Origin: Chloroflexota bacterium | Lineage (GTDB): Bacteria > Chloroflexota > Anaerolineae > Anaerolineales > UBA11579 | Reading direction: 5' to 3' | Assembly: GCA_016191875.1 (NCBI GenBank) | Contig: JACPVG010000016.1 | Location: 106,444 to 155,686, forward strand | DNA: 49,243 bases | In this document: positions 118 to 39,271 of the stretch, piece by piece | Layout: each line of letters starts with the position of its first letter | Numbering within the stretch: the first letter of the stretch is position 1 | The notes under the pieces: model-generated | What the model saw: only the letters and a program-made list of their open reading frames with translations | Told to the model about the DNA's origin: nothing | Databases searched by the model: none | Program-made: the position numbers and the translations under genes

Positions 118-900
118 CTACCAGTCGATGCCCGGAGCCGTCTGAACTCGAGCTGGTTTGCCGATGGTCCTGTACATGGTTACATGGTCGAACGGCTGAC
201 CGAGAATGCCGTCGTGTATTGCCCATGACCGAAGGCGGATGCTATGCTGCGCTTCCGGCTGCCTGAAGGGGCCGCCATCCAGCGCGCCGGTCAGGCTGCC
301 ATCTGGTGAAAACCCAGAGTTTATTTCTTCCATAAATCTCCGGCCAGTCTGATAAGCGAATCCGTAGCGCTCAAAGATGATCGCATTGTGATAATACAGC
401 GGTTCGACGAAGAACATGGCGTGCCCAAGACTGGTGACGAAATTCTCGAAGGAGACCTGGGCATCCTTCAGCCGGTGAAGGCCGCGCCTCACCTGCCCGG
501 GCAACAGTCCGGCCTGCATGGCCGCACTCTCAGCCTCGAGATTCCTTTGCAGGGTTCCGAACTTTGTGGGTGAGCCGTCCGGCGTCCGGTCGACATTGAA
601 GCGTGGAGATTCCGGATCGTTCATGACGTATAGCAGGATGTGAATCTGCCCATTGACCGTATCGGCGAAGTGACCGTAAAGGACTGGATCTTCAAAGCCA
701 TGCTGGTGGAAGAGCGAAAGTTCCACCGCGTTTCTGTCTTGAGTGCACTCAATCTGTAGAAGATCGTTCCCATCTTTATCCACCAGAAATGGCGAAAGGT
801 TAAAGTCGGACAATATTTCAGGTGGAATTAAGCGGTTGTAGACCTCGCGCTGCCGGCTGGGCGGCAGATGGTTGATGCCGGATATCGATGTGGGTGCCAC
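118..900 (-). CDS. Conserved-looking protein of unknown function, 260 aa
   Basis: I do not recognise the family. The product is soluble, without signal peptide, membrane segment or cysteine cluster. It reads as a mixed alpha/beta protein: an N-terminal part rich in Pro and acidic residues (1-110), a helical segment (120-160) and a C-terminal part rich in His, Tyr and Gly (165-260), including the stretch FFVEPLYYHNAIIFERYGF. ERYGF is reminiscent of the end of a GNAT acetyltransferase fold, but no acetyl-CoA loop is visible, so I do not assign it. The start is a GTG at 900, 5 bp after the smpB stop, so it is probably translated from the same transcript as smpB. No strong ribosome site is visible. 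Confidence 0.7.
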   Translation of the reverse strand: MAPTSISGINHLPPSRQREVYNRLIPPEILSDFNLSPFLVDKDGNDLLQIECTQDRNAVELSLFHQHGFEDPVLYGHFADTVNGQIHILLYVMNDPESPRFNVDRTPDGSPTKFGTLQRNLEAESAAMQAGLLPGQVRRGLHRLKDAQVSFENFVTSLGHAMFFVEPLYYHNAIIFERYGFAYQTGRRFMEEINSGFSPDGSLTGALDGGPFRQPEAQHSIRLRSWAIHDGILGQPFDHVTMYRTIGKPARVQTAPGIDW

Positions 901-905
901 TGAGC

Positions 906-1355
906 TTACCGTTTGTTAAGAGCGCGACGAATTTCCCGTTCGGCATCGCGCTCCTTAATGGATTGCCGTTTGTCGTAGTTGCGCTTACCTTTTACCAGGG
1001 CGATCTCGACCTTTGCCCGTCCGTCCTTGATATAGACCCGAATGGGGATGATGGTGGTGCCTTTCTGGCGGGTTTCATCCCAGAGGTCGGCAATCTGGCT
1101 TCGGTGGAGGAGCAGTTTCCTTTCCCGCAAGGGATCGTGGTTCTGATGGCTGGCTGGATCGTAAGGAGCGATATGGGCATTGACCAACCAGGCCTGACGA
1201 CCGTCGGTGCGGACATACGCCTCTTTGAGACTGATCTGGCCGGCGCGAATCGACTTTATCTCGCTGCCCTGCAAGGCCATTCCAGCCTCGTAGGTGTCCA
1301 AGATGAAGTAGTCGTGGCGCGCCTTTCGGTTGGTAGCAACAACCTTCTGTTCCAT
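906..1355 (-). CDS. smpB: SsrA-binding protein SmpB (trans-translation)
   Basis: SmpB binds the tRNA-like domain of tmRNA and delivers it to stalled ribosomes, where the nascent peptide is tagged for proteolysis. The 149-residue product has the family's usual length and motifs: N-terminal NRKARHDYFI, the GSEIKSIR segment of the OB barrel, RERKLLLHR, and a basic C-terminal tail (KGKRNYDKRQ, then a KERDAEREIRR helix) that mimics the missing anticodon arm. The reading frame is open 19 codons further upstream, but the family begins at MEQK, so I place the ATG at 1355. No tmRNA gene (ssrA) was recognised in the window. It lies 93 bp downstream of the TPR-protease gene and 5 bp before the unknown gene at 118-900. 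Confidence 0.97.
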   Translation of the reverse strand: MEQKVVATNRKARHDYFILDTYEAGMALQGSEIKSIRAGQISLKEAYVRTDGRQAWLVNAHIAPYDPASHQNHDPLRERKLLLHRSQIADLWDETRQKGTTIIPIRVYIKDGRAKVEIALVKGKRNYDKRQSIKERDAEREIRRALNKR

Positions 1356-1448
1356 CGAAAGGATTTTAGCATGGTTGCCTGCGCCCGGGCCGAACCGGAG
1401 CGCGGTTACCAACCGGCGGGTGGTAGTGGTTAAACAATATGCGCAATC

Positions 1449-3971
1449 TCAGCGCGATACGGCAAGTTTGGCGAGGCTGCCTGCTTCATCCAAGGTTATG
1501 CGCGCCACCCGGGTGTGGGTAGACGAACCGGATTGAATCCGCTTCGTCAGAGTGATTACGCGGCGGTGGGGATTGGTGGCAAGCCTACTCTTGGCATGGA
1601 GGTGCTGGGAAGGGCACTCATGGCCGCTGCAATCGAGGTGTTCCTGGTTGCACACCAATTTGGCACCGGACATAGAAGGCAGGTAATCTCTTACGATAGA
1701 CTTCACCTGGCGGATCACGTCTTCTGAGATTGGGAGGGGTTCGGCGGCCTTGTCCTGCCGGGCGCAGACCGTCTTCACTTCAACGGGATTGAACTCTCTA
1801 GGGGTAAATTTCGGCGCGGGAGTATTTGCCCCGATGCGCGCCAGCGGATCGCCATAGAGAACGAACGAAATCAGAGTCTTTTGATCCTCTCCATCCAGGA
1901 AGCCCTGTCGGCGGTCCATCTCCCTGGCCAGCTGAATTTTGGCCCGGCGGAGCGCTTCCCCGGCAGGTTGGCCTTCCTTCAGGTTTGTCCAGAAGTATTT
2001 TCCCACGAGGTCCGCGGCGATCAACGGTGTGGAAATCGAGCCGTATGAAATGCATGTCGAACCTACGAACGCCTGGGTACCCGACGCAAGGAATTTTAAG
2101 GCGATAGCCTCTTCCACGCGCTTATCCAGGATATGGGCGCCATAGCAGGCTTCGGAGAAGACGATGCCGGGAGCGCGGCCGCTGTTTTGCACGTCCTGAG
2201 GTCTCAGTGCAATGGGATAATCTACGGTCCCAGAGTCCTCCAGTGGATCTCGTTGTCCGAACCATTCCGGGGCGTCTACCAGGCCGTGGAGATTGAAGTA
2301 GCCCAGGGCTGCGGGTGGTAGTCGCGCCGAGCTCTTGCCGTCGGCGTTCAACGGAGGCGATACAGAGAGGGCCTGATGCTTGCCGATGGTTCGGAAAACC
2401 GCATGGGAAGCGCGCTGCCAGACCTGAGCCGTGACGCCCAGGCTGGCTTCCGAACCGGTGCGCTGCAGGCGGCGCAGCAGGCTTTTCCACCACGGTTGGG
2501 ATGCCTGCGCGCCCGCTATTTCTCGGGCTGTAGCGATGCGTTCAATCTGACTGACCATTGCACGGAGGGTGCCTTCCCGAGGGGTTGGCACGCGGCCAAC
2601 GGGCCAGGCGGGGACAAAGTAATTGTCATCAAGCGTGGCGTACGGATTGTCGGATGGGACCTCATGGTCTTCATCATCCACTGGATTGGGCAGCAGGTGG
2701 AACGGGATGATCTCAGGGCCGCCAATGATCAACAGTGCACCGAGCCGCTCACCATTAGTTCTTAGCGCCGCGTCCAAATCGCGAATAAAGTTCTTGATCT
2801 CCCAGGGGTCACGCCGGGCGACCGGGGCGAGGGCGAATACAGAGGCCGACTCAGAATCATCGACATAAACGAGATGGCTGCCCATCTGTCCCCTCCGCTG
2901 GTTGGCTTGAACCAGGCGCAGCATGGCAGCATGAATCGTCTTGAGGTTTCCGGCCCCGTACTTTTCTTCAAGCGCCTGCCGGGATGTCAGCAGAACATAG
3001 GCCGGAAAGCGGCCATCGGCCCCGGTCAGGTGGGGCTGTTTAAGTGCGGCGGCAAGCCTATCCAGTTCCTCCCGGATATCTATGACCTCTTCCTTTGGCA
3101 ATGCAACTGGGGCAGCAGGGGCCTTCCGGTTTCTGCGCGCTTTGGATTTTATCGAACCAGGTCCGAGACTGTTCCACCCCAATGTAGCGGCGACTGCGGC
3201 GGGAATCGGAAGCCTGATTGGGGCTTCAAGCACCTGGGGCCAGATCTTGCGATAAGGGTGTTCCAACCCCCACAAACGCGCAGGAGTCTGCCCGGTAACA
3301 TCTCGGGAAGCAATATCATGTAACCGCACTACGGCGGCCGACTCATCGCCGTTTCTAAGCAAGGCTTCCGCCAGGGCCAACTGGAAGGCGAGACAATCCG
3401 GCCAGCGTTGAGCCATCGTCTCTGTCCACTCAGAGGCAGCTGGCCAATCCTCCGAGCGGCGCAGGGCATATAGCGCGAGGAGCCCTGGCAGGGGCGAGGG
3501 CGGTTCAAGGACTGCGATGGATTTCAGGTGGGACGCACACTCAGATTCGGAAAGGCTGCTTCGTTTTGATTGTAGATCAATGACAGCCAGCGCCCAATCT
3601 GGGAGGACTCCCAGATCTTTGAGCGCGCCGGAAAGGATGGCGACATTCCCAAAGGTGGCGGTTGCCAGCGGCATGTTGGCTTCCCTGGCGAAGTGTGCCA
3701 ACATGATCTGGCCCTGAAGCAACTCGGGATCCAGTTGAAGCAAGCGCTTGAGCTCCGTGGTCGCCAGGTCCTTCCTGCCGTTAGCCCACTGGGCTTCTGC
3801 ATTCACCAGAGCGATTCCAAGATCGCCAGGGAATTCTGCGAGCCACGACTCCGCGAGGCGGCGCGTGAAGGTGTGCTGATTGGCGCGCCGGGAAGCGCGC
3901 AGCAGGAGAATAACTTCGTGGCGAGCGACGGCTGCCCCTTCGGCGATCTGTCGTTGGCGTGTACTGTCCAT
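1449..3971 (-). CDS. TPR protein with C-terminal C25/caspase-fold (clan CD) cysteine protease domain
   Basis: An 840-residue protein with three parts. Residues 1-260 are helical TPR-like repeats (for example TTELKRLLQLDPELLQGQIM). Residues about 320-715 look like a gingipain-type C25 peptidase: a strand LGALLIIGGPEIIPF (410-424), DNPYATLDD then PVGRVPT (441-463), catalytic His562 in YFNLHG, and catalytic Cys609 in VFSEACYGA, followed by GEALRRAK and LYGDPLARI (706-713). This strand-His-Cys order is that of clan CD proteases, which include caspases, CHAT and gingipain. Residues 770-792 form a Cys/His-rich cluster (C774, H778, C781, H784, C786, H790, H792) that could bind metal. No signal peptide is present, so it is cytoplasmic, unlike secreted gingipains. 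The ATG is 3 bp after the stop of the giant TPR gene, implying coupled translation. Substrate and role are unknown; a pseudo-enzyme is unlikely because both dyad residues are present. Confidence 0.85.
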   Translation of the reverse strand: MDSTRQRQIAEGAAVARHEVILLLRASRRANQHTFTRRLAESWLAEFPGDLGIALVNAEAQWANGRKDLATTELKRLLQLDPELLQGQIMLAHFAREANMPLATATFGNVAILSGALKDLGVLPDWALAVIDLQSKRSSLSESECASHLKSIAVLEPPSPLPGLLALYALRRSEDWPAASEWTETMAQRWPDCLAFQLALAEALLRNGDESAAVVRLHDIASRDVTGQTPARLWGLEHPYRKIWPQVLEAPIRLPIPAAVAATLGWNSLGPGSIKSKARRNRKAPAAPVALPKEEVIDIREELDRLAAALKQPHLTGADGRFPAYVLLTSRQALEEKYGAGNLKTIHAAMLRLVQANQRRGQMGSHLVYVDDSESASVFALAPVARRDPWEIKNFIRDLDAALRTNGERLGALLIIGGPEIIPFHLLPNPVDDEDHEVPSDNPYATLDDNYFVPAWPVGRVPTPREGTLRAMVSQIERIATAREIAGAQASQPWWKSLLRRLQRTGSEASLGVTAQVWQRASHAVFRTIGKHQALSVSPPLNADGKSSARLPPAALGYFNLHGLVDAPEWFGQRDPLEDSGTVDYPIALRPQDVQNSGRAPGIVFSEACYGAHILDKRVEEAIALKFLASGTQAFVGSTCISYGSISTPLIAADLVGKYFWTNLKEGQPAGEALRRAKIQLAREMDRRQGFLDGEDQKTLISFVLYGDPLARIGANTPAPKFTPREFNPVEVKTVCARQDKAAEPLPISEDVIRQVKSIVRDYLPSMSGAKLVCNQEHLDCSGHECPSQHLHAKSRLATNPHRRVITLTKRIQSGSSTHTRVARITLDEAGSLAKLAVSR

Positions 3972-3974
3972 TGA

Positions 3975-6900
3975 TCAGTCCAATCCTTGAGGTCGGTGAA
4001 CGAGGTTGAGGGCGATAATGCCCCCCAGCTGGCGCCGGATGTTCGAATCACCGGGTGATAATTGGCTGGCTCTCTTGAGTATGAGTTCTGCGCCGGAATA
4101 ATCCCGGTTCTCGCGCATAATTTCACCGGCGCATATATACGCGCGGGTATCCTTGGGCGCGAGCGCCATGGCCTTCCGGTAGGCCTCCAGTGCATTTTCG
4201 GGCTCGCGCCGCAGGCGGTAGATATCGCCTGTTTCCAGATAAGCTTCGACCAGTCCGGGTGACAATTGCGCGGCGTGGGAAAGGTGGTGAAGAGCCTGGT
4301 CCAATTGCCCTGCCTGGCGAAGCAGCGCGCCCAACTGGTAGTGCAGTTGGGCGCGCTGCCCAGGCGGCAAACCACTGCTATCAGGGCGAAGGGCAGCCCG
4401 GCACATCTGGATGGCCTCAGGCAAGTTACCCAGGCGCGTCTGGAGAGTTGATATGGCTGCCGCCACGTACGGGGAATCGGGATGGACCTGGGCCACCTTT
4501 TCCATGTACTCGAGCGCGGCGGCATCTCCTTCTAGGTGCGCGATGACATCCGCGCGCTCAAGTGTGAGCGGAATCGGACTGGTCGAACGCTCAATGCTCT
4601 CATCAATCACTTCAAGAGCTTCGACGTGGCGCCCCAGCGCCATCAGGCTTCTTACCTGCCAACTCCTGGCCGCCGGCAGCAAAGGGGATTTAGCCAGAGC
4701 GGCTCCGGACTTCTTCAGGCTTTCAGCAAAGCGGTTTTCCTGGAAGGCGATGCGCGCTTCAAGCACTAACGGCTCGGGACTATCCGGAGAAATCTTCTTC
4801 CACTTCGCTATGCACCTCAGCGCTTCTGGAAAGTCACCACAGGCAAAGTGAGCCTCGGCGAGCGCGCCCCAGACCTCTGGCGGAGTTGCCCGGGTTGAGC
4901 TTGCGGGCTCCAACACACGCAGCGCGTTCCCCGGCGCATTCTGGCTTAAATACTCCCGGCCGAGCGCCAGGCGCAGACTGACCTCATCGGGCGCGAGCGC
5001 GAGCGCATGCTCGTAGTGCCGGACCGCGTGAGCATCCATCCCCAATTGCGAGCAAAGGTTGCCAGCCAGTTCATGCCAGCGAACTTCCTCAGGCCAAAGG
5101 GTCAGGGCTTCCGAAATCCACTGTACGGCATCCGTCAGTCGGCCAGCCCGTTTTGCGAGAAAGGCGCACAGTGCAAACCAGAGCGGGTTTTTGATGGGCT
5201 GCTCGAGGAGCGGCCGGCACAAGCTCAGACCAAGGTCGGGATCGTCTTTGAGGTGGTAGAGCGCCAATTGAGCCAATGCGAATGCGCTCTGGTTATCCAA
5301 ATCTTCTACTATTTCGGGCAGCCAACTGCAGGCGGACCGGCGACAAGCTGCTATAGCGGCCGCAAGAGCATCGCGCCTTTCTGCCAGGTTCTTGATTTCG
5401 TTTCTTGAGGGCGCGATGCCATCCAGCGCCCAGCGCATTCGCGCCTCCCATAGCGCCAAGGCGGACCCGGCGCTGGCATGAGCCAGCCGTCTGGCGTGCT
5501 CGAATTCAGCAGCAGCCAATTCAAGCGCCTGTTCTTCGAGCACTTCATCGCCGGGCGCGTGATGCGTGACCTGGAGGGCTCGGCAAAGGTGCTGACGTTC
5601 GGCCTGCAAGACCAGTAATTTCGCAACCATGAAATGAGCGCGGGCTTCCTGCCGGGTGGGGTTGACCGCCGCGCGGGCAAGGGAGAGCGCGGCATTGTAG
5701 TCTCCAATGTCCTGAGCCGCTTCGGCCAGCGATAGGCGGGCGGCGGCCTGGTCGTGCGATGGGGCGTTCGAGATTTCGAACTCGGTGAGGGTGGCGCGCG
5801 CGATTTCAAATAGCTCTGCGGCGTTTGCCCACTGCCCAATCCGCGTGGCCAGCCGTGCTTGAATTGCCAGTTGGCGCGGATGGGCGGAAGTTGCCGACAC
5901 CAGCTCATTCAACATCTGGCTGGCGATGACCTCTTCGCCATTGTCAAGGGCAAGTTCTGCCCTCAACACGATGGCGTCCACTTCCAGGTCATCAGGGAAT
6001 TCCCCGACGAGATTTCGGGCTTTGTCGAGATCCAGGCATGCGCGAGCCAGTTCCGTGCAGAGCACGATCAATTGGCCGCCACGTGGTTCAAGATCAAGCG
6101 CCTGGCAGGCATGGCTGTAGGCTGCGGGTATCTCACCGGATTCCTGCAGGATTCTCGCCAGCTGTTCGTGCAGTTGAGAATTCAGTGGATGCTGTGGAAG
6201 CGCCCCCTGAAGCGCCAGCAGGGCCGATTGTAGTTTCCCCATTGCCCAAAGGATGCTGGCCTTCTTAACGACAAGTTCGGGTTCGTCGGCCGCGAGGGCG
6301 AGCAGTTTTTCAACTATCTCAAGGGCCTGCGGGTGGCTGCGAGTCTTCAGTTGAATCTCAAGGACATCGGAGAGTATCTGCCTGGAGTTGCCATCCGATC
6401 CTTCCAGGGCCCTCTCAAGGTAGGAGAGGCTGTTTTTGTAATCCTCAATCTCGCTGAATGCAGCGGCCGCCCGTCTGAAGTGCTCTGATGAAACGCCCTT
6501 CAGCGATTGAAGCCGACCCAGGGACCGCTTCCCGTTTTCTATATCTCCCAGCCGAAACCAGGCAAGCCCCGTCCGGAGCGCGATCTCCGGTGACGCGCTG
6601 TCCGCCGCCCGGGCGTGTTCGAGGATATCCAGCGCAAGTCTGAATGCGTTGAGTGAAGACGCCTGATCGGACGCCCAGAGCAAGATGTCGGCATTGTTCT
6701 CGCAGCGAGAAGGGACCTGACCAAGCAGGTCGAGAGCGTTCTCTACCAATCCCGAGGCTTTGAACGCCTCGACTTGAAGTCGTATCACTAGGGGATCGTC
6801 GGCAGTTGCGGGCAGGTGATCTTTCAGGGCGGCGAGCGCCACTTCGGGTTGACCGGAATCCAGGGCGGCGCGCGCCATTCCAGTCACCAGCCGAAAACGC

Positions 6901-9254
6901 CATTCGGTCGACTTTCCCTGGCGCGCCCTGAGCAGATCGCGGAAATGGGCCAGGGCTTCCCGGCCCTCTCCCTGCAGGGTGAGGAGTTCTGCCTGAAGAA
7001 TCTTAAGTTGAAAGGAATCGGGAGCAAGGGTTTGCGCGCTGGCAAGGATCTGGTCGGCCTCCGCCAGGCCGGTTTCGCCTTCCAGCAGGAGTTCCAGGAG
7101 GGCCAGGTGAACCTCAAGTTCATCGGGGAATTCTTTACACATCTGCCGGAGAATGCATTGAGCATTCCCGGACTGCCCCAGCGCGCGATAGGAATCTGCC
7201 AGGATCCAATCCAGCTCCCGATCGATAACTGCCTCTTTGCGGGCAGCTTCCAATAGTGCAATCGAAAGCTCGGCCTTGCCCAATCGATTCAGGGCAGCGG
7301 CGAGCCGCCTGATCGGAGCGTGATCTGGGATAGCGACTGATAGCTCTCGGTCGATGAATAGTTTGCAGGCAGTTTCAAGACTCTCGGACGCCGGGACATT
7401 CTCCCCAATTTCCAGAAGGATCTCGCCCTTCAAGAGATGGAGTTGGGCAGGTGCTTCGACCAGCCCAAAAGCGCGTTCTATGGCTGCCAGCGACCGGGCA
7501 AGGGCACCCAGGCTTCGATAATGTTCGGCCAGTGCCAGCCATGCGTCCGCCATAACCGGATCGAGTTCAGTCGCGGTCTCGAAGTGAACAAGGGCGTTCT
7601 CCTGGTCCCCCAGGACCTGAAGGGCGCGCCCGAGCACTACGTGACCGCCGCCGCTTGAGGGCTCGAGGAGGATCGCCCGCTGGCTCAATTTTGCGGCCAT
7701 CTTGGCATTGCCGCAACACAATGCCGCTCGGGCAGCGTGGCGGAGGTCGCCAGGTTGGACAGCATCCGCGTGTGCGAGGACGAGTTGCCAGGCTTCAAGA
7801 CTGGCCGCCCACTCCCAGTTGCTTTCGTAGGAGCTTGCCAGAAGCCGCTGGGCGTCGATGTCATCCGGTGCGAGAGTGAGGAGAACCTGGGCGTGTTCGA
7901 GGGCGTCAGCGGGTTTTTTTACATCCAAGAAGGTCTCAACCAGGATGCGGAGAGCGAATCTGTCGACGGGGTCCCGCTCGAGGAGATTCTGGGCAACCCG
8001 GATTGCCTCAGAGGTAAGCCCCAGCGCGGCCAGCAACCGGGCCAACATTCGCAATTGGGCTGGCTGATCGCCAGTTGCGGTTTCAGCGCCGTTCGGGGCC
8101 GCTGAACAGCGCGAGAAGGCTTGCAGGGCATAATCTTCCGCCCTGGCGCGCTGATTGGCCATGTATGACGCGTTTGCCATAGCGATCAATGTGAACACAT
8201 CGTCGTCAGTGGATTGACCACCCACCGGTGGAAGATTGACCAGGCTCGGGTCCAGTTGGCCGGTATGCAGTTTGGCAATTACTATGGCTTCGCTATCTGC
8301 TCCGTTTCCTAATGAAACCGAAGCGGCCTGGGCCAGCGCCAGCAGAGCGGTATCGCGATCATCGTTTTCGGCCGCGGAACGCGCGACCTGGGCCGTGATG
8401 TCTGCCTGAAGCTGTTGGGAGATCTGCCAGGCGCGATCCAAGAGTGGCACGGCCTCCGCCGGGCGGTTCGCCAATTGGAGCAGATCTGCCTGGTGGAACA
8501 GGCGCGTGATGAGTTCGGGGGCATCCGCGTCCGCCAAGTGGGGGGCAAACGACTCTGTGAGCCGGGCAGCCAGGGCACCGCACGATTCAGACGATATGGC
8601 TCCCAGTCTGTGCAATGCCTTGATCTGCTCGTTTGAAGGCAGAGGTTCGATTCCCTCTGAGAGCAGGTCAATCTGATCTGGCGGGGGTATGGGATTGGAC
8701 AGGATGGACAGCATGCCGATCCCCTGCAAACTATGGGAACCAACAGACCTTATCAGGTGAAGGATGGGGGCCTTTGCCAGGGGCGAAAGCGCAAAGAAAC
8801 AGGAGAGTGCCGTGTTCCAGAGTGGAACATTTGCCGTGTGGGCCTCGCGAATGAGGTCGTCGGCATTGGCGTCAACCCGGACTCGCTCACGCAGGCCGAG
8901 CGCAACAAGGCCGGCCAACTTCAGGCTGTTTTCTGTTGGAGTGAAGTTGTGCATCAGGTCGCCGATGTTTTCCAGCGCGGCGGCGGCCTCGCGGCGCAAC
9001 GATTCTGGTAAGCTGAAGCCCGCATCCGCATTCAGCGAGTCAAAATGCTCTTCGGCATCCAGTGTGAGCAGAGCGAGAGCCGCAGGAGACCAGCGCATCG
9101 GGGTATCTACCGCATAGTTTGCGGCGCGGCGGAAGAACTCCTCGTCGCCTAACAGACTCCAGGCCAGAGGCAAGCGCCGGAGAGCGCTTACAACGGTAGA
9201 TGCCCCCTCCTTGCCGAGGGCAATCCCCAGTTCCCTGGCTGGTGAGAACGTCAT
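3975..9254 (-). CDS. Giant TPR-repeat protein, ~1760 aa
   Basis: Almost the whole length is tetratricopeptide-like helical repeats from about residue 240 to the end. Typical TPR positions recur many times (ALVHFETATELDPVMADAWL, ALEAYRKAMALAPKDTRAYI). The first ~240 residues are helical but not clearly TPR. There is no signal peptide, membrane segment or enzymatic motif, so a cytoplasmic scaffold or sensor is the natural reading. An in-frame TTG at 9275 would overlap the upstream gene by 14 bp. I prefer the ATG at 9254, 8 bp after the upstream stop; neither has a good Shine-Dalgarno. The stop is 3 bp from the start of the TPR-protease gene and the upstream neighbour is a small membrane protein, so the three are very likely made together. 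The repeats suit binding of a protein partner such as the protease, but that is inference. Confidence 0.9.
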   Translation of the reverse strand: MTFSPARELGIALGKEGASTVVSALRRLPLAWSLLGDEEFFRRAANYAVDTPMRWSPAALALLTLDAEEHFDSLNADAGFSLPESLRREAAAALENIGDLMHNFTPTENSLKLAGLVALGLRERVRVDANADDLIREAHTANVPLWNTALSCFFALSPLAKAPILHLIRSVGSHSLQGIGMLSILSNPIPPPDQIDLLSEGIEPLPSNEQIKALHRLGAISSESCGALAARLTESFAPHLADADAPELITRLFHQADLLQLANRPAEAVPLLDRAWQISQQLQADITAQVARSAAENDDRDTALLALAQAASVSLGNGADSEAIVIAKLHTGQLDPSLVNLPPVGGQSTDDDVFTLIAMANASYMANQRARAEDYALQAFSRCSAAPNGAETATGDQPAQLRMLARLLAALGLTSEAIRVAQNLLERDPVDRFALRILVETFLDVKKPADALEHAQVLLTLAPDDIDAQRLLASSYESNWEWAASLEAWQLVLAHADAVQPGDLRHAARAALCCGNAKMAAKLSQRAILLEPSSGGGHVVLGRALQVLGDQENALVHFETATELDPVMADAWLALAEHYRSLGALARSLAAIERAFGLVEAPAQLHLLKGEILLEIGENVPASESLETACKLFIDRELSVAIPDHAPIRRLAAALNRLGKAELSIALLEAARKEAVIDRELDWILADSYRALGQSGNAQCILRQMCKEFPDELEVHLALLELLLEGETGLAEADQILASAQTLAPDSFQLKILQAELLTLQGEGREALAHFRDLLRARQGKSTEWRFRLVTGMARAALDSGQPEVALAALKDHLPATADDPLVIRLQVEAFKASGLVENALDLLGQVPSRCENNADILLWASDQASSLNAFRLALDILEHARAADSASPEIALRTGLAWFRLGDIENGKRSLGRLQSLKGVSSEHFRRAAAAFSEIEDYKNSLSYLERALEGSDGNSRQILSDVLEIQLKTRSHPQALEIVEKLLALAADEPELVVKKASILWAMGKLQSALLALQGALPQHPLNSQLHEQLARILQESGEIPAAYSHACQALDLEPRGGQLIVLCTELARACLDLDKARNLVGEFPDDLEVDAIVLRAELALDNGEEVIASQMLNELVSATSAHPRQLAIQARLATRIGQWANAAELFEIARATLTEFEISNAPSHDQAAARLSLAEAAQDIGDYNAALSLARAAVNPTRQEARAHFMVAKLLVLQAERQHLCRALQVTHHAPGDEVLEEQALELAAAEFEHARRLAHASAGSALALWEARMRWALDGIAPSRNEIKNLAERRDALAAAIAACRRSACSWLPEIVEDLDNQSAFALAQLALYHLKDDPDLGLSLCRPLLEQPIKNPLWFALCAFLAKRAGRLTDAVQWISEALTLWPEEVRWHELAGNLCSQLGMDAHAVRHYEHALALAPDEVSLRLALGREYLSQNAPGNALRVLEPASSTRATPPEVWGALAEAHFACGDFPEALRCIAKWKKISPDSPEPLVLEARIAFQENRFAESLKKSGAALAKSPLLPAARSWQVRSLMALGRHVEALEVIDESIERSTSPIPLTLERADVIAHLEGDAAALEYMEKVAQVHPDSPYVAAAISTLQTRLGNLPEAIQMCRAALRPDSSGLPPGQRAQLHYQLGALLRQAGQLDQALHHLSHAAQLSPGLVEAYLETGDIYRLRREPENALEAYRKAMALAPKDTRAYICAGEIMRENRDYSGAELILKRASQLSPGDSNIRRQLGGIIALNLVHRPQGLD

Positions 9255-9261
9255 GGGCGGA

Positions 9262-9588
9262 TCAGGCCCAGCCAACCTGATGAATCAGAAAATAGGATGC
9301 GGCCATCATGAGCAAGCCGACAAACACCAGCATGGAGCCAATACCCCGGGCGGTGCGCACGAGTTGATTCATGGCGTCGACCAGGGCAGTGGTGTTCCCA
9401 ACCAATCCGGCAACCTCATCGGCAATCCCTTTCTGCGCGAGGTGCGCGGTTTGATCTCTGAGGCTTTCGATATCTTTCCCGATCGCCTTTGAAACCAGGA
9501 CAAAGACCCCCAATACGAAGGCCGTCACCCCCAGGAAGAATATCACTGAGGCCATGAAGAAGATTACATCTCGATACACAATAGTCAT
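9262..9588 (-). CDS. Small two-helix membrane protein of the TPR/protease cluster
   Basis: A 108-residue protein of unknown family. A long hydrophobic helix (about 8-33, FFMASVIFFLGVTAFVLGVF) is followed by a ~45-residue soluble helical segment (KDIESLRDQTAHLAQKG, ALVDAMNQLVRTARG) and a second membrane helix (about 83-102, GSMLVFVGLLMMAASYF). The middle looks able to form a coiled coil. The frame is open 15 codons further upstream, but the ATG at 9588 has a strong AGGAGG 9 bases before it, so I start there. Its stop lies 8 bp before the giant TPR gene. Position suggests it anchors the TPR/protease pair at the membrane or passes a membrane signal to it; nothing in the sequence proves that. Confidence 0.82.
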   Translation of the reverse strand: MTIVYRDVIFFMASVIFFLGVTAFVLGVFVLVSKAIGKDIESLRDQTAHLAQKGIADEVAGLVGNTTALVDAMNQLVRTARGIGSMLVFVGLLMMAASYFLIHQVGWA

Positions 9589-9665
9589 GGTCTTCGCCTC
9601 CTGACCCTGAATGATTCGGGTAGCCAGGTGCAAGGAATGTGCCCGGCTGGGAGGCGATTTGGAGA

Positions 9666-9694
9666 TTGACGGGACGGGGAAACGGAATTAAAAT
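9666..9694 (+). promoter_or_regulatory. Sigma-70-type promoter for rplY
   Basis: TTGACG at 9666-9671 and TAAAAT at 9689-9694 with a 17-bp spacer, both close to consensus. Transcription would start near 9701, giving a leader of about 138 nt before rplY. Confidence 0.65.
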
Positions 9695-9710
9695 CCTTGG
9701 TTGCAACGCA

Positions 9711-9737
9711 GTCTCCTCATAATGAGGGGACATTTTT
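9711..9737 (+). terminator. Hairpin plus T-run in the rplY leader (terminator-like)
   Basis: An inverted repeat (9711-9720 with 9722-9731, one G-U pair, effective loop of about 5 nt) is followed at once by ATTTTTA. It has intrinsic-terminator shape on the plus strand but lies only about 10 nt after the predicted start of transcription. There is no plus-strand gene upstream for it to terminate, so an attenuator or 5'-protecting hairpin is possible. Confidence 0.45.
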
Positions 9738-9788
9738 ATGCCAGGATGACACTGGCCCATCGGACCGGCGTGGCCGGAATTCAGCCGA

Positions 9789-9824
9789 GGGATGAAGGTA
9801 ACCCGCACGGGTGAGAGGCATCCC
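9789..9824 (+). promoter_or_regulatory. Second leader hairpin just upstream of the rplY ribosome site
   Basis: GGGATG at 9789-9794 can pair with CATCCC at 9819-9824, enclosing a small ACCC/GGGT hairpin at 9801-9812. The structure ends directly at the AAAGGAAGG ribosome site (9825-9833), so folding could affect translation of rplY. It matches no riboswitch class that I know. Confidence 0.35.
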
Positions 9825-9838
9825 AAAGGAAGGATGAC

Positions 9839-10498
9839 ATGGAACAAGAAGTTCTAAAAGCAACAGTACGTACTGAAACTGGCAAGAAGGTGAGCGCTCT
9901 TCGTCGGGCTGGTCAGCTTCCGGCCGTGATTTATGGCAAGGCGCTCAAGGCCCCGATTGCTGTCTCGCTGGATCTGCGAGAGGCGACACGGGTGTTGCGG
10001 CATGTGGGCTCCTCAACGCTTCTGACTCTGGAGGTAGAGGGGCGCGAGATCCCAACCCTGGTGCGCGAGCGCCAACGCGATTTTCTGCGGGGCGATTTCC
10101 TGCACGTGGACTTTCTGGCCATTTCGCTCACCGAAAAGGTTCGCACGGAAGTCTCAATCGTTCTTGACGGCGTTTCCCAGGCGGTGAAGGACGGTGGCCT
10201 GCTTATCACCGGCGTTGAAAGCGTAGAGGTCGAAGCGCTGCCTCAGGATCTACCGGAGAACTTCACAGTGGATCTGAGCGTTTTGAAGGCAATCGGAGAT
10301 GGTATTCATGTTTCTGACCTTATCATGCCCGCGGGCGTGGAATGCCTTTCCGACCCCGAAGAATTGATCGCGGTGGTCACTGCCCCGACGATTGAGGTCG
10401 TGGAAGAAGTCGAGCCGACTGAAGTCGTTGCTGAACTGGAGCCCGAAATAATCGAGAAGGGCAAAGCTCAGGAAGAATCCGAAGAAGGGGAGGACTAA
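9839..10498 (+). CDS. rplY: Large ribosomal subunit protein bL25 (Ctc form)
   Basis: bL25 binds 5S rRNA in the central protuberance of the 50S subunit. The 219-residue product is the long TL5/Ctc version: residues 1-95 are the 5S-binding L25 domain (TVRTETGKKVSALRRAGQLP near the start, then PAVIYG) and residues 100-185 are the C-terminal beta domain (LPENFTVDLSVLKAIGDGIH). A very acidic Glu-rich tail (190-219) follows, common in Ctc proteins. The ATG at 9839 follows a good ribosome site (AAAGGAAGG). It is transcribed away from the TPR/protease cluster, has its own promoter (9666-9694) and ends in a terminator (10527-10560), so it is a single-gene unit. L25 genes often sit alone or next to peptidyl-tRNA hydrolase; the latter is not seen here. 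Confidence 0.97.
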   Translation: MEQEVLKATVRTETGKKVSALRRAGQLPAVIYGKALKAPIAVSLDLREATRVLRHVGSSTLLTLEVEGREIPTLVRERQRDFLRGDFLHVDFLAISLTEKVRTEVSIVLDGVSQAVKDGGLLITGVESVEVEALPQDLPENFTVDLSVLKAIGDGIHVSDLIMPAGVECLSDPEELIAVVTAPTIEVVEEVEPTEVVAELEPEIIEKGKAQEESEEGED

Positions 10499-34928: not shown

Positions 34929-36773
34929 TCAGCCTCTTCCAAGCACACTCTCAAGGACGCGTACGGCGAACTGGCGGCCGATAACCGATGCAACCCGCAA
35001 GGTTTGCTTTGTATCTTCCGGGAGGTGGTCGATGCGCGCCAGCAAGAGGCCCTGAAGGGTATCCGGAATCTGGATGGACTCGACGTCGCCTTTGGCAACC
35101 CATCTTCCGTTTTCCCGACCGAGAACGTCTTGATCAATAAGCATCCTGACCACTTCCTCCATGAAGAAGGGGTTGCCCTCTGTCTTGGCGAGAATCGCAT
35201 CCCGCGCGCGCTTTGGGAGAGCCTCGACTTCAAGCAGGCTGGAAATCAGCATGCGGCTTTCTTCCGCGCTCAGGCTGGCAAGTTCAACTGTTGTCAGCCG
35301 ATCGGCCGATTCGCGGCTAAGACTTGCAATGATCTCCCAGCCGGAGGCCTGATGGTCAGGACGCGTGATGAAACAGAACATTATCTTGTGGTCTGAAAAA
35401 TCCGAATCTCCAATCAGGCGCAGGAGGAGGTCGGTTGAGGATGGATCTGACCAATGGATGTCTTCGAAAACCAAGATAAGTGGCTGGTTCCGGCTCAGGG
35501 CCCGGCAGAGGTGTTGAACGGAGCGAAGATACTGGGCCTGGAGGAGTTGCGGGTCCATATTTCCCAACTGGGCAATGGCTGGGAGGTCTGCACCTATTGA
35601 AAGAAGGTGGGCAAGATACGCCAGCGTTTCGTCAGACTCATTGATCCCAATCTCCTCCAGCGTGTGGGTCAGGGCAAGTTGGGTTTCTTCGTTAGAGGCA
35701 GTTGCAGGCGCATTGATGACGTTTCGGACGAGATCGATTACGAGATGATAGGCCAGCCCGCGCCCATAGGAAAGGCATTGACCGGTTACCCATAGGGGTT
35801 TCTTTCGGGATTTTGAAATGCTCCGCTGCCATTCTGTGACCAGGCGGCTCTTGCCAAGACCGGCCTCCCCAATAATGGCAACATATTGCGGGCTGTCGGA
35901 AGATAGAGTCGCTGTGGCCGACATCAGCGCTTCTAGGTCCTTAGCGCGCCCGATCATGGGGCTGGAGATACCGGCCGCGTCCAACCCGCGCAGGCGCCCG
36001 GCACGCTCCTTGCGACCCAAGACCTCAAATACGTTCACCGGCTCGCTCTTGCCCTTAACATCAATAGGACCGAGGGACTTGAGCTCAAATACCGGTTGGA
36101 CGAATCGCCCGGTCTCTTCGGAGATCAAAATAGCACCAGGGGAAGCTGCGGCCTGCATCCGGGCAGCCAGGTTCACGGCGTCACCCATGGCCGTATATTC
36201 GTACTTCAAGTCAGAGCCGATCTCTCCAACCACGACCGGCCCGGTATTGATGCCGACACGCATCTGAAAATCCTGACCGTAATCGGCTCTGACCGATTCG
36301 GCGAACTCGGCTGTCGAAGCGAGCAGATCCAACGCGGCGTTGACGGCGCGAACGGGGTCATCCTCATGGGCAATTGGGGCGCCGAAGAAGGCGAGCAGCG
36401 CATCACCCATCAGGCGGGCGATCGAACCTTCGTAGTGGTATATCGGTTTTGATATCTGGTCGAAGGCGCGATTCATCAAACCTGCCCAATGCTCCGGGTC
36501 CATCGATTCGGCCATTGCGGTCGAGCCCACTACATCTGCAAACAAGGCTGTGACCATCCGACGCTCCCCGACGAGATGCGCGCCGGAGCGTATCTTCCGG
36601 ACGAGACTTTCTGGAGTATTGGAGGCTAGCCGAGCAAGTCGCTGATTGTCTACCGCGGTAACCACTTCGAGTGGATGGCCGCAGTTCATGCAGAATTTTG
36701 CCTGGGAGGGATTGGACTGACTGCAATTTTTGCAGTTCATGAGCAGTGATGCCTGTTTCTGACGAGTTGGCAT
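34929..36773 (-). CDS. Class III adenylate/guanylate cyclase fused to AAA ATPase, C-terminally short
   Basis: About 614 residues: a zinc ribbon at the N-terminus (NCKNCSQS, FCMNCGHPLE), a class III cyclase domain (about 70-250; VTALFADVVGSTAMAESM with the metal Asp, LMGDALLAFFG, RVGINTGPVVVGEIGS, YTAMGDAVNLAARM) and an AAA-type ATPase (Walker A GEAGLGKS; Walker B LILVFEDIHWSD). Relatives usually continue into several hundred residues of TPR-like repeats and reach about 1000-1200 aa. This one stops right after ASVIGRQFAVRVLESVLG, so the C-terminal repeat domain is missing. No matching sequence follows in the 127 bp before the next gene. It may be a deletion remnant or a natural short form. The cyclase residues are intact. 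TTG 36776, ATG 36773 and ATG 36740 are possible starts; none has a clear ribosome site. Confidence 0.9.
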   Translation of the reverse strand: MPTRQKQASLLMNCKNCSQSNPSQAKFCMNCGHPLEVVTAVDNQRLARLASNTPESLVRKIRSGAHLVGERRMVTALFADVVGSTAMAESMDPEHWAGLMNRAFDQISKPIYHYEGSIARLMGDALLAFFGAPIAHEDDPVRAVNAALDLLASTAEFAESVRADYGQDFQMRVGINTGPVVVGEIGSDLKYEYTAMGDAVNLAARMQAAASPGAILISEETGRFVQPVFELKSLGPIDVKGKSEPVNVFEVLGRKERAGRLRGLDAAGISSPMIGRAKDLEALMSATATLSSDSPQYVAIIGEAGLGKSRLVTEWQRSISKSRKKPLWVTGQCLSYGRGLAYHLVIDLVRNVINAPATASNEETQLALTHTLEEIGINESDETLAYLAHLLSIGADLPAIAQLGNMDPQLLQAQYLRSVQHLCRALSRNQPLILVFEDIHWSDPSSTDLLLRLIGDSDFSDHKIMFCFITRPDHQASGWEIIASLSRESADRLTTVELASLSAEESRMLISSLLEVEALPKRARDAILAKTEGNPFFMEEVVRMLIDQDVLGRENGRWVAKGDVESIQIPDTLQGLLLARIDHLPEDTKQTLRVASVIGRQFAVRVLESVLGRG

Positions 36774-37035
36774 CAATTCTACTCTAAAACAGGAAATCGC
36801 CAGCGAGGTTCTGTTATGGGAGTGGCTACAAGGTGGGGTTCGTCATCGCGAAGCGATTGGAGATGGACTTTGCCCAACTCTTAGCAAATGCCTTCGGCGT
36901 TTGCCAGCGAAGCAATCTCTATTCTGGCTGGAAAGATTGCTTCGTCGGGCGGAGTTTACACTGAGTGTAGCCGAAGTGCCCTCCTCCATTGGCCTTACGA
37001 GAGTAACTCCCTGTCATAGCTGGCGAGCCAAAAGG
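36774..37035. repeat. Intergenic repeat region with REP-like palindrome
   Basis: This 262-bp spacer holds no credible gene. It contains an 11-bp inverted repeat, CGAAGCAATCT (36908-36918) with its complement at 36934-36944 and a 15-nt loop, of the kind dispersed in many bacterial genomes. A second stretch (GCGAAGCGATTGGAGATGG, about 36847-36865) resembles the same element, and a third (CACTGAGTGTAGCCGAAGTG, about 36958-36977) resembles another dispersed type. No second copy of either was found in the window by eye. Confidence 0.6.
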
Positions 37036-37435: not shown

Positions 37436-39271
37436 TCAGCGAGGAATGCCGACCCGCCACACCCGGATGGCCTCATCTTCAAACCCCTTAAGGGAAGTGG
37501 TCACGTGGGGCTCAACACGGGCACCTAACTCGTCATCTTCCAACAAGACTGACACTTCAGGGTCGTCATGAAATTCATCGCTGAGCACCAGGTCTTGTCC
37601 AGACGACATATCCACTAACCGGGAGGCGAGGTTTACGGTCGTGCCGAAGTAATCTAAGCGGTCATTCAAATTAACAGCGATGCATGGCCCAAAGTGAAGG
37701 CCGGCCTTAAGTTCCAACCGCTGTGCGGTTGAGCCAGGCTGTGCCAGCGCCATCTGTGCTTCAGCAATTGCATGGAAGGCGTCCGCCGGCCGCTTGAAAA
37801 CTGCCATGACGGCATCGCCGATGGTCTTAATGAGCGCCCCATTATGATTGGTAATTGAGGATCGCAATACGTCGAAGTGAGTCATGACCTGGCCGAATGC
37901 GGGGGCGTCGCCAATCGTCCGATACATACGGGTGGATTGCCGTAGGTCAGTGAAAACCACCGCAAGCCGCCCGACCGCGAACCGGTCCCCGGGCCTGAGC
38001 GCCTCGCTGGCAAACAGATCGCGGAATTTCTGCAGGGCGGTGACCTCTGCGGCGGTTACTGCCTGGTCACTCCAGGCCACTCGCTCCAAAATGAACAAGC
38101 CCTCATCCGAAGAATTATTGGCAAGGGAGATGGATGACTGATTGAGGATCAGTTCTTCGCGGGCATCTCCGACGGCCGGCGCACTGAGTTCGATGCTGGA
38201 ATTGCCCTCAACGCTCACTCGAAAGAACTGAACTCCGGGTCTTCCGAGTACTCTGAACCGGTAGCGGCCATCATCAAACAGAGGCGTGATTGTGCGCCTG
38301 GTGTTGGCGGGTAATAGCTGTTGAGCGACGATATGGGGAGTGATCTGCGGCCCGGCGATGCAGTATTCCAGATCGATTGAGACTTCACGAATAGAAGGGT
38401 TGGGCCTGAAGGTCAGTTCGACGGATTGATCAAAATTGATCTCATATTCAATCAGACAAGTATCGCAGTGCACCTTGCTTGGGAGTTGCCGCAGTGTATC
38501 GCTGGTTTCCCGTGCTACCCGGCAGGATGGGCAGAGCAAGTGCCAGCTGAAATCCAGAATCCCAAGGCGTGTGGCGATGAGGAACATTTCGAGGACTGAT
38601 TTCCGATCCGCCTGCCATCGATCCGCCCAAGCATAAGGGCGTAGATTTGCAGCTTCAAAATCGTCAGATTTTGAGACAAGTTCCACAAGGCGCGTAGCGA
38701 TTTCGCCTGCTACGCCCAGTCCGACCAGTTCTTCTTTCAGCCGCACCAGGCGTGTGCCGCCACCTGGTGCCAGGCGAGCGCGTACGGCTGGCGCAAAGGC
38801 CTCACTCTGTTGGATTCGCCTGTCATAATCCAGGAAGGCGCGCTTGAACGCCCCTGCACTTATCAGCCCGATCTGCGCGGGTATGGCCAGCAGCCCCAGC
38901 AGGTTGCGCGGCTTTGCCCAAACCTCATAGGTCAGGTGCGTGCCCCCGCGCGCTCTTGGAGCCAGGCGGGTCTGCACTCGCATTTCGGCCACAGGCCCTG
39001 TGGAGTACTTTCGCAAGACGCCGAATTTATGGGGACGTTCCCACTCGAAGGGTTCTTCTACCCAGGTCACAGGAATTCCCAGACGAGAGAATCGAAGCTT
39101 GCGGCGCGCGTTCTTAAGGCCGAGGTCCTTCTTCCCAAGATTGTTCAGGGCGGGAAGGCCCGTGTCTCGGTTAAACCTATTCGTATCCGAAACCAGCGGC
39201 CAATAGGTAGCCGGGTCCGACTCTAAGTCGTATTCCCACTTGTAGTAGAAATTCCTTGTAAGAGTCGTCAT
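37436..39271 (-). CDS. Class III adenylate/guanylate cyclase with START-like and DUF5939-type N-terminal domains
   Basis: A 611-residue protein. Residues about 1-165 look like a SRPBCC/START-like ligand-binding domain (FYYKWEYDLESDPATYWPLV, LTYEVWAKPRNLLGLLAIP). Residues about 180-400 form a DUF5939-like region with a four-Cys zinc site (CPSC and CDTC). Residues about 415-605 are the cyclase domain: RLAVVFTDLRQSTRMYRTIG (metal Asp), GALIKTIGDAVMAVFKRPAD (second metal Asp), KAGLHFGPCIAV and YFGTTVNLASRLVDMSSGQD. These catalytic parts are complete, so cAMP or cGMP production is likely. The START-like domain suggests response to a lipid or hydrophobic ligand. It is the first gene after tRNA-His on this strand, but a terminator at 39298-39321 separates them. 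Confidence 0.92.
   Translation of the reverse strand: MTTLTRNFYYKWEYDLESDPATYWPLVSDTNRFNRDTGLPALNNLGKKDLGLKNARRKLRFSRLGIPVTWVEEPFEWERPHKFGVLRKYSTGPVAEMRVQTRLAPRARGGTHLTYEVWAKPRNLLGLLAIPAQIGLISAGAFKRAFLDYDRRIQQSEAFAPAVRARLAPGGGTRLVRLKEELVGLGVAGEIATRLVELVSKSDDFEAANLRPYAWADRWQADRKSVLEMFLIATRLGILDFSWHLLCPSCRVARETSDTLRQLPSKVHCDTCLIEYEINFDQSVELTFRPNPSIREVSIDLEYCIAGPQITPHIVAQQLLPANTRRTITPLFDDGRYRFRVLGRPGVQFFRVSVEGNSSIELSAPAVGDAREELILNQSSISLANNSSDEGLFILERVAWSDQAVTAAEVTALQKFRDLFASEALRPGDRFAVGRLAVVFTDLRQSTRMYRTIGDAPAFGQVMTHFDVLRSSITNHNGALIKTIGDAVMAVFKRPADAFHAIAEAQMALAQPGSTAQRLELKAGLHFGPCIAVNLNDRLDYFGTTVNLASRLVDMSSGQDLVLSDEFHDDPEVSVLLEDDELGARVEPHVTTSLKGFEDEAIRVWRVGIPR

Follow-up and report, generated by a model that had tools for sequence, protein, structure and literature searches.

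A putative sigma-54-driven operon for a gingipain-type protease and its predicted link to cell division in Anaerolineales

The window analyzed here, a whole stretch of 49,243 nucleotides from a Chloroflexota bacterium of the order Anaerolineales (assembly GCA_016191875.1, contig JACPVG010000016.1, positions 106,444 to 155,686), carries three closely spaced genes for a small membrane protein (MEM), a giant tetratricopeptide repeat (TPR) protein (GIANT), and a cysteine protease with TPRs (PROT). This locus raises two questions: what switches the three genes on, and on which cellular process would the protease act? Sequence comparisons lead us, with reasonable though not high confidence, to read MEM-GIANT-PROT as one sigma-54-driven operon whose products would assemble into a TPR-protease complex, anchored in the membrane and directed at the cell-division machinery. 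The kind of predicted sigma-54 promoter found before MEM also precedes the division cluster in most of the relatives examined, so the genes likely form a membrane-bound complex that helps to control division. The window is part of contig C10 of a 3.2-Mb source genome that is 91% complete. The features of the module are:

9629..9644, minus strand, sigma-54-type site GGGCAC-N5-TTGCA (-24/-12), 40 bp upstream of the MEM start codon
9597..9602, minus strand, Shine-Dalgarno sequence AGGAGG before MEM
9262..9588, minus strand, MEM, open reading frame of 108 aa
3975..9254, minus strand, GIANT, 1759 aa, from ATG at 9254 to the stop at 3975
1449..3971, minus strand, PROT, 840 aa, TPR-C25 cysteine protease
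3222..3926, minus strand, N-terminal TPR helices of PROT, residues 16-250 (Pfam TPR)
1815..3005, minus strand, gingipain-type catalytic domain of PROT, residues 323-719
2286..2288, minus strand, His562 codon, catalytic dyad (H in 160/160 aligned sequences)
2145..2147, minus strand, Cys609 codon, catalytic dyad (C in 160/160 aligned sequences)
1452..1724, minus strand, C-terminal domain of PROT, approximately residues 750-840, related to the protein SMALL described below (profile-profile comparison)

The operon, its promoter site, and its products

The sigma-54-type site went unnoticed in the initial annotation and holds most of the meaning of this locus. The sequence before MEM, GGGCAC-ATTCC-TTGCA, is the sole GGCAY-N5-TTGCW site in the 49-kb window. 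It conforms to the -24/-12 pattern TGGCAY-N5-TTGCW with G as the first letter instead of T, and the GG and GC are in place. No sigma-70-like match was found on the minus strand of 1300-9900. The genes are closely spaced: the initial annotation had given gaps of 8 and 3 bp, of which the 3-bp gap between GIANT and PROT was correct, and the MEM-GIANT gap is actually 7 bp when GIANT starts at ATG 9254 (the mechanical open reading frame opens at a TTG further up). As annotated, AGGAGG precedes the first gene only, and MEM is the only one of the three with a clear Shine-Dalgarno sequence.

MEM has two transmembrane helices (by eye), separated by a ~45-residue linker (27-row alignment) that, again read by eye, looks HAMP-like; the WalK match is weak (E 0.048). 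TPR matches cover much of GIANT (Pfam, TPR_19 2.3e-39), which is presumed to be a scaffold. Generic NCBIfam TPR labels (PrsT, MamA, and PilW) were rejected, all of them being below cut-off. The N-terminus of PROT carries TPR and TPR_19 matches (Pfam), and its Peptidase_C25 match (PF01364) has an E of 5e-17 and 62.6 bits against a cut-off of 23. These matches bear out the three coupled minus-strand genes of the initial annotation, and the His562/Cys609 dyad that it had named is correctly placed and invariant. The lack of a clan-CD fold in a structural model had been set beforehand as a refuting outcome; the model confirmed this fold and predicts it to be of the gingipain type. Because PDB sequence searches yielded no gingipain, the fold call is based on Pfam and the model. 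The Pfam scan of PROT to E 0.1 returned C25 and TPR only, with no CHAT domain. By eye, PROT has no signal peptide, and a gingipain-like secretion signal or sorting domain is not obvious in its sequence (no predictor was run). The PROT family comprises 422 homologues at E<=0.001, and those with an organism in the source name come from Anaerolineales, Anaerolineae, or Chloroflexota. A putative membrane-tethered protease with a TPR sensor or scaffold is a reasonable description of the module.

Distribution of the module and of sigma-54-type sites

PROT was detected in 82 of the 101 sampled genomes of the order, the source genome included (E<=1e-3; G069 matched weakly, at 4.5e-4, and G085 and G098 only in part), and in 23 of 249 genomes drawn across the class (E<=1e-40). 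The expected conservation of gene order was found: in 38 of 40 fetched loci, the first matched gene upstream of PROT is GIANT, and MEM was found in 37 (in L049, an antisense 74-aa open reading frame was picked between GIANT and PROT). MEM in several GC-rich loci escaped length-based picking of open reading frames, as did two genes of the source genome, GHL and a second ftsZ (FtsZ2); these were located by tblastn and direct reading. The genes for sigma-54 (rpoN), a PAS histidine kinase, and an NtrC-type activator lie just upstream of the module in 14 of the 40 loci, and GHL together with a second FtsZ lies within the fetched stretch in 18 (downstream of the module in 13, upstream of it in 5). 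From 20 class-level PROT genomes outside the order, 13 loci were fetched, several of them cut by contig or fetch ends. Here, GIANT was present upstream of PROT in all 13, MEM in 12, the NtrC-type gene in 10, GHL in 8, FtsZ in 6, and rpoN in 4. A pattern search of genome contigs for related loci gave 12 pattern matches and no relative.

Sigma-54-type sites recur with these genes. Of 38 loci, the window among them, 32 have a site upstream of MEM; the corresponding figures are 17 of 19 for rpoN, 14 of 22 for GHL, and 7 of 21 for FtsZ2, where the other 14 FtsZ2 genes follow GHL. These four positions explain 72 of the 96 sites on both strands of 790 kb. The spacing of 5 bp that gave the 96 matches is specific: other spacings (0-4 and 6-11) gave 5-18, the reversed motif gave 1, and scrambled hexamers gave 4.4 +- 3.3 with a maximum of 24. 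In the source genome, a looser pattern gave 14 matches versus 5 for the reversed control, and four of them precede MEM, rpoN, GHL, and FtsZ2. Outside the order, 10 of the 13 loci have a coding-strand site in the stretch from the NtrC-type gene to MEM; it lies 72-94 bp before MEM in three of them and 442-953 bp before MEM in seven, ahead of another small, often receiver-like open reading frame. A reading in which each of the 11 coding-strand sites of these loci stands directly before MEM was rejected, the eleventh being inside GIANT.

The sigma-54 sites of ten relatives were followed into their downstream genes, and seven precede a short coiled-coil membrane protein. In the six cases readable further, a penicillin-binding protein-like gene and then a MurF-like gene come next, that is, ftsL-ftsI-murF (murF by eye), the head of the division and cell wall (dcw) cluster. 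In L182, the first two products matched FtsL_2 (1.3e-4, below cut-off) and Transpeptidase (1.5e-72), and in five genomes the contig with the site also carries the canonical ftsZ, ~15 kb downstream. Because these first dcw cases had been found through the motif, 20 further regions were picked by position alone; 19 contained ftsL-ftsI, and 15 also a murF-like gene. Of the 16 PROT-bearing genomes among them, 12 have an exact site upstream of ftsL, and two more (the source genome and L221) have a site with one mismatch. Dinucleotide shuffles gave a mean of 0.03 of 16 and a maximum of 2, and both the other strand and the reversed motif gave 0. The site was absent before ftsL in 3/3 genomes lacking rpoN and PROT; in G052, one of the 16 PROT-bearing genomes, rpoN itself was not found. 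Among the sequence comparisons, this result is the strongest evidence that the module would belong to a division regulon.

A sigma-54 activator domain was found in 82 of the 101 genomes, and 74 of these 82, the source genome included, have exactly one, counted among at most 31 scored candidates per genome; some of the single matches are weaker, other, or partial proteins (G028, G029, G032, G038, G041, and G071). The NtrC-type activator of the source genome consists of a receiver, a sigma-54 AAA domain, and a lid that ends at residue 390 of 393. No helix-turn-helix (HTH) match was found in it to E 1, nor in the L054 activator to E 0.1. With a single activator in most of these genomes, one protein likely serves all the sites. 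PROT and rpoN also occur together: in the 69 genomes that are at least 90% complete, 55 have both, 1 has PROT only, 2 have rpoN only, and 11 have neither (75, 7, 6, and 13 in all 101 genomes). In the same 69 genomes, PROT occurs with at least two FtsZ matches in 54 and with fewer in 2; one has two FtsZ without PROT, and 12 have neither.

The initial annotation, arguing from TPR-CHAT proteins, had framed the locus as a suicide or stress-signaling module. In such an anti-phage or stress device, a trigger would be sensed by the TPR proteins, after which the C25 protease, tethered to the membrane, would kill or arrest the cell. This explanation is improbable. The catalytic domain is C25 rather than CHAT, the module is present in most sampled genomes of the order in a conserved gene order, often beside the sigma-54 circuit and FtsZ, and PADLOC had no match for PROT or MEM and matched GIANT only weakly. 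The window contains no direct repeats of >=22 bases within 120 bases and therefore no CRISPR array, as the initial annotation had noted. The promoter type, the co-regulated genes, and the neighbors (ftsL-ftsI, the second FtsZ, and the sigma-54 circuit) point to division instead.

A second FtsZ and its partners

FtsZ2 forms its own clade with support of 100/100 (21 FtsZ2 vs 21 canonical rows). The protein of the source genome has a tubulin GTPase domain (1.1e-45), an FtsZ_C domain (2.1e-23), and the tail peptide LDMPAFLRRR; the GTP-binding loops and the tail peptide are retained in most FtsZ2. The T7 loop differs. Two aspartates of this loop promote hydrolysis in the neighboring subunit, and its mutation suppresses assembly of Staphylococcus aureus FtsZ, according to PMC8936486. 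Both are intact in the canonical loop (NLDFADV) in 21/21 sequences, and one is lost in 20 of the 21 FtsZ2. The second aspartate is replaced by His, Asn, or Ala in 18, and the first by Gly in two, from the source genome (NRGFADI) and from G001.

The gene after FtsZ2 encodes SMALL, a relative of the C-terminal ~90 residues of PROT (97% probability in the profile-profile comparison, 68 columns). Apart from this predicted common domain, nothing physical hints that the protease meets FtsZ2. An apparent FtsZ2-SMALL fusion in L052 was rejected, as it reads through a run of N. The GHL barrel matches GH39/PslG, and no invariant glutamate was found across 20 homologues; GHL may therefore be no glycosidase, and a working enzyme is doubtful.

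The link to ftsL-ftsI could also be read as wall synthesis rather than division control. In a cell-envelope module of this kind, sigma-54 would adjust the surface polysaccharide and the wall, and the protease would mature or remove envelope proteins. We consider this unlikely because the recurring partner is an FtsZ2 with an intact tail and an altered T7 loop, GHL has no invariant glutamate, and PROT shows no signal peptide by eye. PROT might also be a protease for housekeeping or stress that has only its activator in common with the division genes and is connected neither physically nor functionally with the divisome. The arrangement in the source genome would suit this: the operon lies between ribosomal-L25 and smpB genes (smpB named by eye from sequence, not Pfam), on a contig other than those of rpoN and FtsZ2, and the other parts are dispersed, with rpoN-kinase-NtrC on C28 and GHL-FtsZ2-SMALL on C30. 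We give this explanation very little credence, since GHL and FtsZ2 lie near the module in 18 of the 40 loci and in several loci outside the order, and SMALL and PROT have a domain in common.

Several observations weigh against a sigma-54 division operon. The only site in L129 falls within GIANT, and the coding strand of L128 and L138 carries none. The dcw site of the source genome has its mismatch in the -24 element, and two of the 16 PROT-bearing genomes (L212 and L219) have no site before ftsL. Sites also precede genes without a known division role; 31 of 63 site-gene pairs are singletons with no repeated downstream family and may be due to chance. The rpoN-less genomes (n=20) still average 4.65 TGGCAY-N5-TTGCA sites versus 1.0 for the reversed control, and the rpoN-bearing genomes (n=81) average 9.1 versus 1.5. 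Two genomes of the same genus, G001 and G002 (89% and 82% complete), keep rpoN, and PROT and GIANT were not found in them; G001 still has a second FtsZ and GHL. The circuit may therefore do without the protease, or these bins lack PROT. FtsZ2 of L070 retains both T7 aspartates, as do two of the four readable FtsZ2 outside the order (L128 and L140; the other two lost one). The homology between SMALL and the PROT C-terminus is modest, and a model built from three SMALL sequences alone matches 9 of 160 PROT at E<0.01. Finally, co-occurrence p-values are too small, as they ignore shared ancestry, and families f11 and f6 make up much of the 'neither' class.

Other genes were seen next to sigma-54-type sites. 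A ~350-aa family with an N-terminal transmembrane stretch follows a site in eight relatives (L151, L159, L164, L175, L184, L188, L194, and L197); one member scanned had no convincing Pfam match, and the family is likely another regulon member. A linked family of open reading frames of 390 to 1019 aa follows sites in seven loci (L154, L160, L173, L177, L189, L192, and L199), and several of these look sensor- or membrane-protein-like by eye. Sigma-54-like sites were seen 20 bp before a ~350-aa gene at L091:1656 (source genome) and in L167 (G089). At L097:2998-3012 (C28:429497 of the source genome), GGGCAT-N5-TTGCA lies 11 bp before a 144-aa membrane open reading frame followed by a MurJ-like gene (by eye), which would fit a cell-wall regulon in this one case. 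G033, which is rpoN-less, has 12 TGGCAY-N5-TTGCA sites versus 1 in the control, and some other rpoN-less genomes also keep many. In G005 (L102, L103, and L104), two rpoN-kinase-NtrC sets and GHL-FtsZ2 are present and sites accompany all of them; PROT was not found there.

Downstream of PROT, the window encodes an SmpB-like protein (906-1412, minus strand) and an unannotated 260-aa protein (118-900, minus strand) without a Pfam or NCBIfam match to E 0.1; one or both genes also follow PROT in several relatives (L032, L036, and L040-L044). In five loci of family f14 (L045, L048, L051, L068, and L069), the gene after PROT is beta-lactamase-like and includes a peptidoglycan-binding domain (Pfam scan of the copy in L069). 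Elsewhere in the window, two adjoining genes (34929-36776 and 37436-39271, minus strand) encode adenylate/guanylate cyclase proteins, one with AAA_16 and one with DUF5939.

Proposed action and relation to known systems

In the reading that we favor, the module is the proteolytic arm of a sigma-54 division regulon. In the proposed sequence of events, the PAS histidine kinase would phosphorylate the NtrC-type activator, which would turn on all sigma-54 promoters together. MEM would anchor the complex, and the TPR superhelix of GIANT would hold the substrate or divisome partners. The C25 protease might then cleave a divisome-linked regulator, by analogy with cleavage of PatU3 by HetF in Anabaena. 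FtsZ2, with one catalytic T7 aspartate lost, may cap FtsZ or co-assemble with it via the retained C-terminal peptide, and SMALL, as a free relative of the PROT C-terminal domain, could pair the protease with FtsZ2 or compete with it. A fuller version is tentative, and we regard it as possible rather than probable. According to this version, sigma-54 and a single activator that needs no DNA-binding domain would run division in Anaerolineales by switching on dcw from ftsL-ftsI onward, a hydrolysis-dead FtsZ2, and MEM-GIANT-PROT; the protease, delivered to the FtsZ2 filament via the shared C-terminal domain, would cut the Z-ring or an inhibitor of the divisome to time septation or break filaments.

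The C25 family includes the gingipains RgpB and Kgp, which are secreted virulence proteases. PROT differs from them in its N-terminal TPR domain and in the C-terminal domain common to SMALL, and it sits in the predicted division regulon. The modeled fold appears to match TPR-CHAT/Csx29 (Craspase) and separase less well than C25. Membership in TPR-CHAT (Csx29) was rejected for lack of a CHAT domain, and no gRAMP or CRISPR was seen nearby; the recurring neighbors are sigma-54, the kinase, the NtrC-type gene, GHL, and FtsZ. In presumed action, the closest known protein is HetF of Anabaena, a CHAT-transmembrane-TPR protein that is needed for septal wall synthesis and loses its function upon active-site mutation, as reported in PMC8406250, and that can cleave the regulator PatU3, as reported in PMC12288457. 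Both cases combine a clan-CD protease with TPRs and a membrane anchor, and HetF is linked to the synthesis of septal wall in Anabaena, which is filamentous. Yet PROT is not a HetF: HetF has its CHAT, transmembrane, and TPR parts in one chain, whereas the module has three chains from three genes, a C25-type protease, and in addition a sigma-54 circuit and FtsZ2. Septal localization and an interaction with FtsI characterize HetF; what connects the module with FtsI is the promoter type that it has in common with ftsL-ftsI.

FtsZ paralogues outside dcw (FtsZl1/FtsZl2 and extra ftsZ copies) are described in conserved operons or loci in PMC2875224 and PMC9871819. Compared with these paralogues, FtsZ2 is a close FtsZ with FtsZ_C and the tail peptide, has an altered T7 loop, and belongs to a sigma-54 set with a C25 protease. 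Chlamydial CtcC and FlgR of Helicobacter are NtrC-type activators with a receiver and an AAA domain and without a DNA-binding domain. The activator described here resembles them in this HTH-less architecture and as a single activator for sigma-54 promoters; the difference is the output, which here would be division genes and a protease operon. Among open-licence PMC papers, in the parts available to the search, none was found that links sigma-54 to dcw or ftsZ or describes this module.

To our knowledge, Chloroflexota include many filamentous uncultured members, and little of their division biology has been worked out. An order in which one sigma-54 circuit apparently governs the dcw head, an altered FtsZ2, and a gingipain-type protease would offer a second, independently built clan-CD division protease beside HetF. 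Such a case makes it testable why clan-CD proteases such as separase and HetF meet the cell cycle, and it supplies a predicted role for the large PROT family.

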